Source: Thiomicrospira sp. WB1
GTDB lineage: Bacteria; Pseudomonadota; Gammaproteobacteria; Thiomicrospirales; Thiomicrospiraceae
Length of the DNA stretch: 64,000 bases
NCBI RefSeq assembly: GCF_001507535.1
Contig: NZ_LQBN01000003.1
Span: forward strand, 124,001-188,000
Reading direction: 5' to 3'
In this document: piece after piece, positions 32,714-39,505 of the stretch
Position numbering within the stretch: the first letter of the stretch is position 1
How the letters are laid out: the number at the start of each line of letters is the position of its first letter
Notes under the pieces: model-generated
Databases searched by the model: none
Told to the model about the DNA's origin: nothing
The model's input: only the letters and a program-made list of their open reading frames with translations
Made by a program: the position numbers and the translations under genes

Positions 32714-33589
32714 ATGTCATTAAAAAAACTGACCAAAGCCGTTATTCCTGTCGCCGGTCTGGGGACACGGTTTTTGCCGGCCACCAAGGCCATTCCCAAA
32801 GAGATGTTGACGGTCGTTGATAAACCGTTGATTCAGTATATTGTGCACGAAGCTGCGGAAGCAGGCATTACCGATATTATTCTGGTAACGCATTCCAGTA
32901 AATCAGCGATAGAGAACCATTTTGATAAGCACTATGAGCTGGAGTCCGAACTCAACCTTCGCGGCAAAAGTGATCGTATGGCCAGCCTGGAAGACATCAC
33001 GCCAGAGGGGGTGCGCATTGTCAGTGTGCGTCAGCCGGAGGCGCTGGGACTGGGACATGCGATTCTCTGTGCGGAACCGGTGATTGCCGACAATGAGCCG
33101 TTTGCGGTGCTGTTGCCCGATGTGTTGATGCACCACCCCAAGAAAGGCTGTTTGGCCCAGATGACCCAGCAGTATCAGAAGATGCACACCAGTGTGGTGG
33201 CGTTGGAAGCGGTGGCGGAAGATCAGGTCGAAAAATACGGTATTGCCGGTGTCAAAGGACCGGACATGCGTATTGTGGAGCTGGTGGAGAAACCAAAACC
33301 TCAGGAGGCGCCTTCGAACTTGTCGGTGGTCGGGCGTTATATCTTTACGCCCCGCCTGATGGAGTTGCTTAAGGACACCAAGCCCGGAGCAGGCGGAGAG
33401 ATCCAGTTGACCGATGCCATGGATCGTTTGCTCGAAGAAGAGGTAATGTTTGGGTTTGAGTTCAAAAATGGCCAGACCTATGACTGTGGCGACAAACAGG
33501 GGTATCTTCAGGCCAACGTAGAATATGCGCTGCGTGATCCCAAGCTTGGCAAACAGTTCAAACAATACCTCAAAGGAATGAAGCTCTAA
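32714..33589 (+). CDS. galU: UTP--glucose-1-phosphate uridylyltransferase
   Basis: Makes UDP-glucose for envelope polysaccharides. 291 residues, with the nucleotide-binding GLGTRFLPATKAIPKEML near the start, EALGLGHA and VVGRYIFTP. First of galU-pgi-ugd-like, a set around UDP-glucose and glucose-6-phosphate. RBS GAAAGGATGA. Confidence 0.96.
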   Translation: MSLKKLTKAVIPVAGLGTRFLPATKAIPKEMLTVVDKPLIQYIVHEAAEAGITDIILVTHSSKSAIENHFDKHYELESELNLRGKSDRMASLEDITPEGVRIVSVRQPEALGLGHAILCAEPVIADNEPFAVLLPDVLMHHPKKGCLAQMTQQYQKMHTSVVALEAVAEDQVEKYGIAGVKGPDMRIVELVEKPKPQEAPSNLSVVGRYIFTPRLMELLKDTKPGAGGEIQLTDAMDRLLEEEVMFGFEFKNGQTYDCGDKQGYLQANVEYALRDPKLGKQFKQYLKGMKL

Positions 33590-33634: not shown

Positions 33635-35266
33635 ATGGGGGTAGAGCAATCACCGGCCTGGCAGGCATTGCAGTTGCACTGTGATGCGGGCGTGGGCAGC
33701 CAGCATTTGGCCAGCTTGTTTCAGCAGCCTAACCGGGTGGATGAGTTTTCATTGGCCTTTGATCAGTTGTATGTGGATTTTTCCAAAAACCGAATCACCC
33801 GTGAGACCTTGGCACTGCTCATGACACTGGCGCGTCAGCAGGGGCTGCCGCAAGCCATTGAGCAATTGACCCGGGGGGAAAAGGTCAATGAAACCGAGGA
33901 TCGTCCGGCCTTGCATACGGCCCTGCGTGCGCAGGGCAAAGACGTCCAGGGGTTTGCTGCCGACGTGCAGCCTCAGGTGGCTGAGGTGCTAGAGAAAATG
34001 GCAGGCCTGGTCAATAAAATTCGTTGCGGCCATTGGCGCGGATACACTGGCAAGCCGATTACCGATGTGGTCAATATCGGGGTCGGCGGTTCCGATCTGG
34101 GGCCACTGATGATCACTCACAGCCTGCAGACGATTGAATCGCCGGTCCGATTGCATTTTATTTCGTCCATTGACGGCACTCAGACGTCCAATCTGCTTCG
34201 CGACCTCAACCAGGAAACGACGCTGTTTATTCTGGCGTCCAAATCTTTTACCACGATTGATACGCTTTCCAATGCTGAAACCGCCAAAGATTGGCTGCAG
34301 GAATGCATCCCCGATGATGACGCGATTATGTCGCAACACTTTATCGGCGTGTCCGCCAATCAACAGAAGATGGCGGAATGGGGCATTCCCCCCGAAAATC
34401 AGTTGGCTTTCTGGGACTGGGTCGGTGGACGCTATTCGCTCTGGTCCGCCATTGGGTTGCCGATTGCGCTGAAAATCGGCATGCAAGGGTTCCGCGAATT
34501 ATTGAGCGGCGCGCATGCCATGGATCAGCATTTCATGACCACGGAAATGGAACACAATATTCCGGTGGTTCTGGGGTTGATCGACATCTGGAACATTAAT
34601 TTTCTGGATATTCACGACAAAGCCATTCTGCCCTATGACGCCCGGTTGCGCTATCTCCCGTCTTACCTGGAGCAGCTGGTGATGGAAAGCAACGGAAAAT
34701 CGGTGACCAAGTCGGGTCAACGTGTGGCGTACAAAACCTGTCCGGTTCTGTGGGGCGAAGTGGGGCCCAATGCGCAGCACGCGTTTTACCAGCTTTTGCA
34801 TCAGGGAACTCAGGCGGTGATGAGCGATTTTATTGCCCCAACCACGCGGGATGATTTTGACCCCAATCTGCATTCGGAGAAAAACGAAAGCCTGCGCTTG
34901 CAACATGAGCTGGCGCTGGCCAACTGTTTTGCGCAGTCGCGGGTCCTGATGTTGGGCGATGAGGCGATCCCTGAAAGTTTAAAAGCCGCTTTCGATTCGC
35001 CGTTCAAACACTATCCCGGCAACCAGCCCTCCAACACGATTTTGTTGGATACGCTTTCGGCACATACGCTGGGGATGTTGATTGCCATGTATGAGCACAA
35101 AACCTATGTCGAAGGGGTGATCTGGGAGATCAATTCCTTTGATCAGTGGGGCGTTGAGCTGGGCAAGCAGATTGCCAAGGAAACGCATCAGGCGATCAAG
35201 GATCCAAGTCGACTGGATGGATTTGATGAGTCCACAAAAACATTGATTCAGCGGGTGGTGTCATGA
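33635..35266 (+). CDS. pgi: Glucose-6-phosphate isomerase
   Basis: Interconverts glucose-6-P and fructose-6-P in the cytoplasm. 543 residues, with NIGVGGSDLGP, DWVGGRYSLWS and the C-terminal signature (SFDQWGVELGK). Stop and start overlap the next gene (ATGA), so the dehydrogenase homologue is translationally coupled to it. Confidence 0.97.
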   Translation: MGVEQSPAWQALQLHCDAGVGSQHLASLFQQPNRVDEFSLAFDQLYVDFSKNRITRETLALLMTLARQQGLPQAIEQLTRGEKVNETEDRPALHTALRAQGKDVQGFAADVQPQVAEVLEKMAGLVNKIRCGHWRGYTGKPITDVVNIGVGGSDLGPLMITHSLQTIESPVRLHFISSIDGTQTSNLLRDLNQETTLFILASKSFTTIDTLSNAETAKDWLQECIPDDDAIMSQHFIGVSANQQKMAEWGIPPENQLAFWDWVGGRYSLWSAIGLPIALKIGMQGFRELLSGAHAMDQHFMTTEMEHNIPVVLGLIDIWNINFLDIHDKAILPYDARLRYLPSYLEQLVMESNGKSVTKSGQRVAYKTCPVLWGEVGPNAQHAFYQLLHQGTQAVMSDFIAPTTRDDFDPNLHSEKNESLRLQHELALANCFAQSRVLMLGDEAIPESLKAAFDSPFKHYPGNQPSNTILLDTLSAHTLGMLIAMYEHKTYVEGVIWEINSFDQWGVELGKQIAKETHQAIKDPSRLDGFDESTKTLIQRVVS

Positions 35267-36576
35267 AAATATCGGTTTTTGGGTGTGAGTTGAGTGGTTT
35301 GGTGACGGCCGGCTCTCTGGCGCATACCGGCAACGAGGTTCTGGCCATGCCGGTGGGAAACTTATTGAAAACCAGTGATCTGGAGCAAGGTATTCTGCCG
35401 CGCGATGAACCGGGACTGAGTTCTCTGGTCAAAAACCAGGTGGCCGAAGGTCGGTTGCGTTTTTCCGATGATTGGCAGGCGGGCATTGCGCATGCCGGGA
35501 TTTTTATGTTGAGCATGCCGTCCTGGCGGTCCGACAAGGCCGAGGAAGTGGTTGAAGCGATTGGCCAGACGGCCGATAAGGATGTGTTGGTGATCAATCA
35601 GAGTACCTTTCCCATTGGCACCGCAGATCGATTCGAAGCCTCGATCAAACTGGCATTTGCCCAGCGCGGGTTGGTGGCGAAAGTCTCGGTGGTGTCGATG
35701 CCCGAATTCATCAGTGAGGGCTCGGCCATCAGTGACTTTTCCAAGCCGGATCGGGTGGTGCTGGGCAGCCATGACCAGCAATCGACCGCCATTATTCGCG
35801 ATTTGATGCGCCCCTTTAATCACGTGACGGATCAGGTCAAAGTGATGTCCACGCGCGCCGCGGAATACACCAAGTACGCGGTGAATGCTTTGCTGGCCAC
35901 GCGCATCAGTCTGGTGAATGAACTGGCCAACAACGCTGAGCACTTTAATATTGATATGGAAGAGGTGCGTCAGGGATTGGGGTCGGACAACCGCATTGGC
36001 TTTAATTACCTCTTTCCCGGTTGCGGCTTTGGGGGGCCAAGTTTTGCCGCCGATGTTCAGGCACTGGTTGGGACACTGCAATCCAAAGGGTATGACGCGG
36101 ACCTACTCAAAGCGGTGCTGCAAAACAATGAAACCCAGAAAGAGGTGCTGTTTCGTAAAGCCTGGCGCTTCTTTAAGAACGACCTCAAGGGACGTAAGTT
36201 TGCGGTTTGGGGGCTGTCGTTCAAACCCAACACCGCCACGGTGGACAATGCGCCCAGTGTGAAAACCATCGAAGCCCTGGTGGCGCAGGGTGCCCAAGTG
36301 GTGGCGTATGACCCCAAAGCGGCGGCGGCGTTTCGTCGATATTGGGGGGAGCGCCCCGGCGTGACGCTGGTGGATGACATGTATCAGGCCCTGGATGAAG
36401 CCGACGCGTTGATGGTCATGACCGAGTGGCGCCGTTTTTGGAGCCCGGATTACGAAGGCATGCTGGCTCGTATGCATCGGCCTGTGATTTTCGATGGGCG
36501 CAATATTTATGAGCAGTCGGTGTTAAAATCTTTCGGGTTCCGCTACTTCGCCGTGGGGCGGGGTGAGACCATTTAA
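35263..36576 (+). CDS. UDP-glucose 6-dehydrogenase homologue lacking the catalytic Cys
   Basis: 437-residue member of the UDP-glucose/GDP-mannose dehydrogenase family by length and domain order: NAD-binding half, central helix, UDP-binding half. Family segments are clear (STFPIGT, PEFISEGSAISDF, K204 in YTKYAVNALLATRIS, D264). The catalytic motif GFGGSCFPKD reads GFGGPSFAAD, with Ser260 where the nucleophilic Cys is expected. The N-terminal GxGYVG reads GCELSG, and the NAD ribose-binding Asp near residue 30 is Pro. The usual two-step oxidation through a thioester is therefore doubtful. It may be inactive, or a dehydrogenase or regulator of a different type. Confidence 0.8.
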   Translation: MKISVFGCELSGLVTAGSLAHTGNEVLAMPVGNLLKTSDLEQGILPRDEPGLSSLVKNQVAEGRLRFSDDWQAGIAHAGIFMLSMPSWRSDKAEEVVEAIGQTADKDVLVINQSTFPIGTADRFEASIKLAFAQRGLVAKVSVVSMPEFISEGSAISDFSKPDRVVLGSHDQQSTAIIRDLMRPFNHVTDQVKVMSTRAAEYTKYAVNALLATRISLVNELANNAEHFNIDMEEVRQGLGSDNRIGFNYLFPGCGFGGPSFAADVQALVGTLQSKGYDADLLKAVLQNNETQKEVLFRKAWRFFKNDLKGRKFAVWGLSFKPNTATVDNAPSVKTIEALVAQGAQVVAYDPKAAAAFRRYWGERPGVTLVDDMYQALDEADALMVMTEWRRFWSPDYEGMLARMHRPVIFDGRNIYEQSVLKSFGFRYFAVGRGETI

Positions 36577-38973: not shown

Positions 38974-38980
38974 GGTGGCA

Positions 38981-39505
38981 ATGGGATTGTCGGCATCGTT
39001 TCTGACTCAACTCGGGGTGCAGCCCTGGCAATTGAAGCCTTCGTTTCAAGCGGCGCCAGAGCAGGCACCGGTTGAGACAATGTCGTCTGACGTTCCGTCC
39101 CCCCAAGCTGATGCGTCTGAGGGACAAGGTGCCATGGCTTCGGCCCAACCGGCCTCCGGCTTGCAACGATTTGTCTGGGTTGAGCCCGGTCTGGCCAGTG
39201 CTGGCGCGCCGGCGCAGGCCTTACTGAGCAATTTGTTTCATGCCCTGGGCGTGAGCGCGCAAAACTGGCAGTGGGTGGACCCTTTGACCTTAGCGGATGA
39301 AACCGCGCGTTTTGACCGGCTTGAAGCCTTGATTGAGTTCGGCCCGGACCTGGCGTTGTGTACCGATCTGGCGCCCGAGTTTGTTCAGGAACTGGCTGAA
39401 GGCATGATGGTAGAAACGGTTGTCTCTACCCAGGCCATGATGCAAGATCCCTGGCAGAAAAAGGCGTTTTACCGTCAGTGGCTGGCGTTGGCCGCCCGTG
39501 ACTGA
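38981..39505 (+). CDS. holD: Probable DNA polymerase III psi subunit (HolD-like)
   Basis: 174 residues. The beginning (FLTQLGVQPWQLKPS) and the end (DPWQKKAFYRQWLALA) resemble HolD, whose N-terminal peptide binds the chi subunit and whose C-terminus ends in a Trp/Gln helix. The middle has a low-complexity Ala/Gln/Ser insert (about 28-65). Its place directly before rimI, overlapping by eight bases, is the classic holD-rimI arrangement. HolD diverges fast, so the call rests on position plus these short matches. ATG 38981 has GAGGTGG upstream. Confidence 0.6.
   Translation: MGLSASFLTQLGVQPWQLKPSFQAAPEQAPVETMSSDVPSPQADASEGQGAMASAQPASGLQRFVWVEPGLASAGAPAQALLSNLFHALGVSAQNWQWVDPLTLADETARFDRLEALIEFGPDLALCTDLAPEFVQELAEGMMVETVVSTQAMMQDPWQKKAFYRQWLALAARD

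Follow-up and report, generated by a model that had tools for sequence, protein, structure and literature searches.

The window analysed here, a stretch of 64,000 nucleotides from contig 3 (NZ_LQBN01000003.1) of Thiomicrospira sp. WB1, contains a three-gene unit, galU-pgi-ugdL, whose last gene codes for UgdL, a homologue of UDP-glucose dehydrogenase (UGDH; UDP, uridine diphosphate) devoid of the catalytic Cys of this enzyme. The host genome is 2.28 Mb long and 100% complete. Among the named relatives found, Hydrogenovibrio halophilus DSM 15072 is the nearest, with a UgdL 94% identical to that of the window. The unit is composed of the following genes:

32714..33589, + strand: galU, UTP--glucose-1-phosphate uridylyltransferase, which opens the unit (NCBIfam TIGR01099, 343.8 bits, cut-off 326.8)
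33635..35266, + strand: pgi, glucose-6-phosphate isomerase (NCBIfam NF001211, 728.3 bits, cut-off 492)
35263..36576, + strand: ugdL, UDP-glucose dehydrogenase homologue without the catalytic Cys, 437 amino acids

A preliminary description, made from the letters of the window, had presented ugdL as a full-length gene coupled to pgi beside galU. In agreement with this, 35263-36576 translates into 437 amino acids without internal stop, and the pgi stop and ugdL start share four nucleotides (ATGA). UgdL contains, in order, the three UGDH domains of Pfam (PF03721, E 2e-30; PF00984, 5.9e-29; PF03720, 7.2e-28) and scores 302.6 bits against TIGR03026, the NCBI 'nucleotide sugar dehydrogenase' model, above the curated cut-off of 189.8, which places it in the nucleoside diphosphate (NDP)-sugar dehydrogenase superfamily. 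Against the TuaD equivalog NF047673 it reaches 308.8 bits, below the curated cut-off of 700. A single general UDP-glucose dehydrogenase family was matched in PHROGs, and PADLOC gave no match.

An AlphaFold2 model of UgdL, based on 28 UgdL sequences, was confident (mean predicted local distance difference test score, pLDDT, 92.8; predicted template modelling score 0.86). The best solved sequence relative, BceC (PDB 2y0e), is 40% identical and superimposes on the model with a Foldseek template modelling score of 0.95 (VIA Z 49.4 over 433 residues), and the UDP-glucuronate-bound structure 3gg2 also superimposes over the full length (VIA Z 49.8, 415 residues, 1.8 Å). The same fold was predicted for the divergent UgdL of locus L044, only 44% identical (pLDDT 92.4), so that both divergent forms of the protein are predicted to have the UGDH fold over their full length.

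Loss of the coenzyme site and retention of the sugar-nucleotide pocket

We compared 61 UgdL rows, one per copy, from 60 genomes (one genome, G024, has two copies, one of them cut by a contig end), with 31 intact, canonical relatives retrieved by the same searches; duplicates, the more distant homologues L039, L040 and L095, and L002, the short Ugd encoded by the window's own genome, were excluded. Residue roles follow PMC4794789 for UGDH and PMC3184952 for human UGDH. The features of the nicotinamide adenine dinucleotide (NAD) site and of the catalytic thiol that are altered in the window are:

35281..35298, + strand: residues 7-12, GCELSG instead of the NAD-binding GxGYVG (Gly9 in 0/61 and Tyr10 in 4/61 UgdL rows)
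35350..35352, + strand: Pro30 instead of the Asp that binds the NAD ribose (Asp in 0/61)
35500..35532, + strand: residues 80-90, site of the deleted GTPP loop, reading LSM--P, with the nicotinamide-ribose Thr (Thr83; its column a gap in 61/61)
36031..36054, + strand: residues 257-264, GGPSFAAD instead of GGSCFPKD; Ser260 replaces the Cys and Asp264 is kept
36223..36246, + strand: residues 321-328, KPNTATVD instead of KPNTDDMR, with the diphosphate-binding Lys321 kept and Asp328 for the NAD-pyrophosphate Arg

The catalytic Cys260 occurs in none of the 61 UgdL rows and in all 31 canonical ones. Its position is occupied by S (23 rows), N (19), H (11), Y (5), D (2) or G (1), and the adjoining Lys is absent in 56/61. 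The NAD-pyrophosphate Arg (Arg327) persists in three rows, an acidic residue standing there in 46, and in the window the Lys of NKST has become Gln113. Some residues of the NAD side are partly retained, namely Gly7 (61/61), Ser117 (51/61), Gly12 (28/61) and Thr118 (27/61). In PMC4794789, the Cys and 17 other residues are reported as invariant across all of its 229 sequences.

UgdL thus lacks both Cys260 and the NAD+ site expected of an active UDP-glucose dehydrogenase (EC 1.1.1.22). Judged from its residues, the known redox chemistry is impossible for this protein, which is almost certainly not an NAD-dependent UGDH. The preliminary description had recognized the replacement of the Cys by Ser260, FAAD in place of FPKD, the loss of the GxGYVG pattern and of the ribose-binding Asp, and the retention of Lys204 and Asp264; the alignment supports each of these points and adds the losses of the GTPP loop, the NAD-pyrophosphate Arg and the NKST Lys. 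Orthologues with an intact SCFPKD in the same locus, which it named as the case that would overturn this view, were looked for and none was found among the 61 rows. A sequencing error, a local assembly fault or a recent loss can be rejected, as 60 further rows likewise lack the core set of Cys, Gly9, the ribose Asp and Thr83.

By contrast, the residues that contact the UDP-sugar have been retained:

35872..35886, + strand: residues 204-208 with Lys204 and Asn208, UDP-sugar contacts according to PMC4794789 (61/61 each)
35992..35994, + strand: Arg244, which contacts the glucose of UDP-glucose across the subunit interface according to PMC4794789 (61/61)
36499..36501, + strand: Arg413 of DGRN (61/61)

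Asn219, Gly257, Gly258, Asn289 and Lys321 are likewise present in every row, and Asp264 in 60/61. All five residues by which we define a UDP-sugar site, Lys204, Asn208, Arg244, Gly257 and the diphosphate Lys, are therefore found in each UgdL. Arg413 presumably takes part in UDP binding, as in human UGDH. Counting the sites kept in at least 80% of the UgdL rows gives 7/7 for the UDP-sugar and 2/8 for NAD (Fisher p = 0.007), in a small test on sites that we picked ourselves from PMC4794789. The intact relatives have 128 invariant columns; at the same level, 72 of them persist in UgdL, distributed as 18/51 in the NAD domain, 35/47 in the central domain and 19/30 in the C-terminal domain. Judged from the sequences, the sugar-nucleotide pocket, the dimer arginine and the fold are under strong selection, and UgdL probably binds a UDP-sugar.

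UgdL has also acquired residues of its own:

36142..36165, + strand: residues 294-301 with the UgdL-specific Glu294, Arg298 and Trp301, a candidate partner surface
36286..36288, + strand: Gln342, a UgdL-specific invariant (61/61, against 4/31 canonical rows)

Glu294, Arg298 and Trp301 occur in 61, 57 and 61 of the UgdL rows, respectively, and in eight, three and none of the 31 canonical ones. Together with Gln342, Gln59 (57/61), Arg214, Phe256 and some hydrophobic changes, they are the few residues that UgdL conserves at positions where the intact relatives vary or differ from it. In the AlphaFold2 model, Arg298 and Trp301 are carried by the helix 295-303, and Glu294 just precedes it. The Trp301 column holds 14 different residues among the canonical rows; positions that vary so much normally lie at the surface, and an invariant Trp suggests a new contact at this place in UgdL.

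Distribution, descent and operon context

A profile built from 28 UgdL sequences (A1) retrieved UgdL in 57 of the 62 genomes of the window's order and in three of the six genomes of a second, small order of the class. Five genomes of the window's order are without UgdL. Four of them (G027, G068, G070 and G075) also lack a pgi match, and in the fifth (G011) a contig end truncates the pgi match, the 3' part of which is missing. UgdL was thus seen in every genome of this order in which the 3' end of pgi is assembled. pgi is present in all six genomes of the second order, and the three without UgdL have a more distant one (45-47% identical to that of G278, versus 72-100%). The profile score alone does not separate dead from intact proteins, since the best intact relative, at 525.5 bits, outscores the weakest known UgdL, at 522.5 bits. 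In a scan of 369 genomes of the class, only the protein of G309 reached the score of the weakest UgdL outside the window's order and two genomes of the second order, and it has an intact SCFPKD. The motif was also intact in the other top matches returned as loci; the reading covered a minority of the 250 genomes with a match at E 1e-100. In a scan of 398 genomes of the phylum, nothing other than the window's own protein passed E 1e-153, a threshold passed by every known UgdL (weakest 4.2e-157) that more distant dead homologues would escape.

The 61 UgdL rows lie on one side of a single branch, apart from the 31 intact relatives (IQ-TREE, support 100/100), and do so again in a quick tree made without the 71 columns that mark the losses (Shimodaira-Hasegawa-like approximate likelihood ratio test, 100). 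Elsewhere in the class, an intact SCFPKD Ugd adjoins pgi (L191) or galU (L192 and L193), and so ugdL may have evolved at this site from a functional ugd. Descent from a UDP-glucose dehydrogenase of the BceC/TuaD type is the best explanation for its origin. In the second order, pgi-ugdL loci were seen in G162, G278 and G428 (L097, L098, L124, L125 and L130), with galU seen in two of the three genomes. Their UgdL groups with that of genus g7 of the window's family (99/90, IQ-TREE), which may point to a transfer between orders.

The preliminary description had also supposed that the gene is maintained, and both its conservation in 57/62 genomes of the order and its ratio of non-synonymous to synonymous substitution rates (dN/dS) support this. 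Between the window and H. halophilus, dN/dS is 0.031 for ugdL (0.003 for its central domain), 0.013 for galU and 0.041 for pgi. Of 13 further UgdL pairs, the 10 with finite dS give values of 0.009-0.080, and dS is saturated in the remaining three; the ratios are rough because dS exceeds 1 in most pairs. The ugdL frame is full-length in 60/61 rows and cut by a contig end in the other. A second, canonical ugd, for which the same description had proposed to look, exists elsewhere in the window's genome (G000 C1): it codes for a short Ugd of 390 amino acids with GYCLPKD that scores 346.1 bits against TIGR03026, above the cut-off, and 647.6 bits against PRK15057, under the cut-off of 757. Four genomes assembled as one contig each and 99-100% complete (G013, G033, G058 and G061) have UgdL as their only PF00984 match. 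UgdL is therefore independent of an active Ugd, and a general role as hetero-oligomer partner of the canonical enzyme can be rejected.

The link with pgi is equally constant. In all 61 rows pgi lies upstream of ugdL on the same strand, overlapping it or at most 196 nucleotides away in 60 and at 1632 nucleotides in one. The two genes overlap by four nucleotides in 36 rows and by 11 in 17 (53/61 in total), the remaining junctions being four at 0 or 1 nucleotide, gaps of 75, 196 and 1632 nucleotides, and one apparent in-frame fusion (L087). The locus extends far enough to show the gene before pgi in 43 rows, and in 42 of these it is galU; the other 18 loci are too short. In genus g3, 21 rows have a phosphomannomutase/phosphoglucomutase-like gene on the same strand at a distance of up to 6 kb; such a gene is found directly 3' of ugdL in L044 and L083, that of L044 coding for a protein below the NCBIfam cut-offs. 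galE is near ugdL in three rows of genus g2, including L046. The products of pgi, the mutase-like gene, galU and galE are steps from fructose 6-phosphate to UDP-glucose.

Several loci depart from the usual arrangement. G024 has two galU-pgi-ugdL units on two contigs (L047 and L048), the second with the 1632 nucleotides between pgi and ugdL. In the metagenome-assembled genome G065, pgi and ugdL form one frame of 932 amino acids (L087:3789-6587); its near relative L085 has the usual 11-nucleotide overlap, a one-nucleotide length difference at the junction separating the two. Either a natural fusion or an assembly error, this doubtful Pgi-UgdL frame was given no weight as evidence of interaction. 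Two versions of the whole unit coexist within genus g3, as in L058 and L042. Among genomes of this genus with a match, leuA is 77-81% identical to that of the window, while pgi is 70-72% identical in six genomes and 52-59% in the others, and UgdL follows the pgi group with 71-74% versus 40-46% (seven genomes). Because pgi and UgdL change jointly while leuA is uniform, an exchange of the entire unit in one piece seems to have taken place within genus g3.

In the window, pssA and leuA are found downstream of ugdL. Between leuA and rimI, a frame of 176 amino acids (38975-39505) has no Pfam match at E up to 1 and is poorly conserved (56% in L032 and 26-30% in the three other relatives with a match). 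By its position in the gene neighbourhood, it could be a divergent psi subunit of DNA polymerase III.

A putative UDP-glucose-responsive pseudoenzyme

Taken together, the loss of the NAD+ site and the catalytic thiol and the retention of the fold of UGDH, its intersubunit arginine and the pocket for UDP-glucose lead us to favour, with moderate confidence, a UDP-sugar-binding pseudoenzyme that acts via a partner in the UDP-glucose operon. UgdL would probably sense or regulate UDP-glucose and not consume it. Probably coupled in translation to Pgi within the operon for UDP-glucose synthesis, a UgdL dimer would bind the end product of the pathway, UDP-glucose or a close relative. Occupancy by this ligand would shift its conformation, and the surface near Glu294, Arg298, Trp301 and Gln342 would report the change to Pgi or GalU, with control of the flux from fructose 6-phosphate to UDP-glucose as the outcome. 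That UgdL acts through one of these two enzymes seems to us evenly balanced, with Pgi as the leading candidate and GalU next. In the most specific version that we can propose, UgdL would be a UDP-glucose-gated regulatory subunit of Pgi, made in step with it and throttling the exit of fructose 6-phosphate, via the Trp301-centred surface, when UDP-glucose is full; we consider this version rather doubtful. In these organisms, fructose 6-phosphate comes fresh from CO2 fixation.

Several observations count against this interpretation. The equivalent of Glu141 is Asp in 39 UgdL rows and that of Glu145 is Asp, Lys or Pro in 12, so that the pocket has drifted, and the residues retained could serve the fold or the dimer instead of a ligand. 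Overlapping neighbouring genes are common in bacteria, and one genome, G055 (L083), has pgi-ugdL without galU upstream, the sole such case among the 43 rows that could be judged. Nor do the candidate partners stand out. When 42 Pgi and 41 GalU rows from ugdL operons, the window included, were compared with 29 others each, gained conserved columns amounted to 19/158 in Pgi, where the L087 row has UgdL residues at its end, and 9/96 in GalU, neither being singled out. In a quick tree of Pgi, the ugdL-linked proteins form no single clade, with three changes, at least two of them forced. In that comparison, Pro135 and Val137 mark all 41 GalU rows from ugdL operons, the 29 other GalU of the class having Ala135 in 28 and Asp137 in 29, which is probably a difference between GalU subgroups.

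Other explanations start from the same residues. An enzyme with new, non-oxidative NDP-sugar chemistry (hydrolysis, transfer or isomerisation) at Lys204, Asn208 and Asp264, working without NAD+, would account for the conservation of Asp264 (60/61), Lys204 and Asn208 (61/61) and an acid at the Glu148 position (60/61), all positions that matter for UGDH catalysis (PMC4794789 and PMC3184952). It is nonetheless unlikely: six different residues (S, N, H, Y, D and G) stand where the Cys was and 56/61 rows lack the Lys next to it, so that this spot has no conserved new catalytic residue, and, besides conservative changes at 249, 250 and 256, the UgdL-specific residues lie elsewhere (59, 214, 294, 298, 301 and 342). 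The invariance of Lys204, Asn208, Arg244 and Lys321 in 61/61 rows, which pure fold constraint would not require, also makes very improbable a ligand-free scaffold or stabiliser of Pgi or GalU in which the kept residues serve fold and dimer, even though the domain responsible for dimer formation in UGDH (PMC3184952), the central one, is the most conserved part of UgdL and several kept residues are structural (Asn219, Asn289 and Gly258; PMC4794789).

UgdL might read UDP-glucose and act on a target outside the operon, such as cell division or envelope synthesis, in the way of OpgH and UgtP, for which UDP-glucose is a proxy of nutrient status (PMC3723540); placement in the operon could then merely link the level of the sensor with that of the pathway. 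We regard this as quite unlikely, for the link to pgi in 61/61 rows and the way in which pgi and UgdL change together within genus g3 favour a target within the operon. Finally, an ancestor may have stood in an old galU-pgi-ugd operon, given the intact SCFPKD Ugd beside pgi (L191) or galU (L192, L193) in the class, and ugdL might be its decaying relic. This is scarcely credible for a gene with dN/dS values of 0.031 with H. halophilus and 0.009-0.080 in 10 other pairs, full-length frames in 60/61 rows and a confident fold predicted in divergent forms.

A UDP-sugar-binding pseudoenzyme with a partner in the operon would have parallels among known systems. UgdL shares with UGDH of the BceC/TuaD type (Burkholderia BceC, 2y0e; NF047673, TIGR03026) the full-length three-domain fold and the UDP-sugar residues, and differs from it by the absence of the catalytic Cys, GxGxxG, the ribose Asp, the GTPP loop and the NAD-pyrophosphate Arg. 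Enteric bacteria have GalF, a GalU paralogue of low activity that NCBIfam labels 'GalU regulator' and that is likewise a nucleotide-sugar enzyme kept around UDP-glucose metabolism after losing most of its activity (PMC4643126). GalF, however, is a GalU paralogue with residual activity, whereas UgdL is a UGDH relative in which the thiol and the coenzyme site are both gone. OpgH of Escherichia coli and UgtP of Bacillus subtilis read UDP-glucose as a nutrient sign (PMC3723540), as UgdL would, but they are glucosyltransferases that inhibit division and UgdL belongs to another fold family. On this reading, UgdL would work somewhat like GalF, OpgH and UgtP without being a member of their families. 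No paper on UgdL was found in open-licence PubMed Central, judging by the titles and abstract beginnings among the matches listed; one may exist elsewhere.

By descent and predicted fold, UgdL is a member of the NDP-sugar dehydrogenase superfamily that, on its residues, should not be filed as UDP-glucose 6-dehydrogenase. As it passes the cut-off of the NCBI 'nucleotide sugar dehydrogenase' model, pathway models could wrongly assign UDP-glucuronate synthesis to genomes such as the four in which it is the only PF00984 protein found. UgdL presents a clear split, a substrate pocket that survived and a coenzyme pocket that was dismantled, across almost an entire order, and it is kept by environmental bacteria related to Hydrogenovibrio. 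If our interpretation is true, these bacteria would possess a device by which the product feeds back on Pgi or GalU, and UgdL would represent a family of UDP-glucose sensors with a testable surface of its own.

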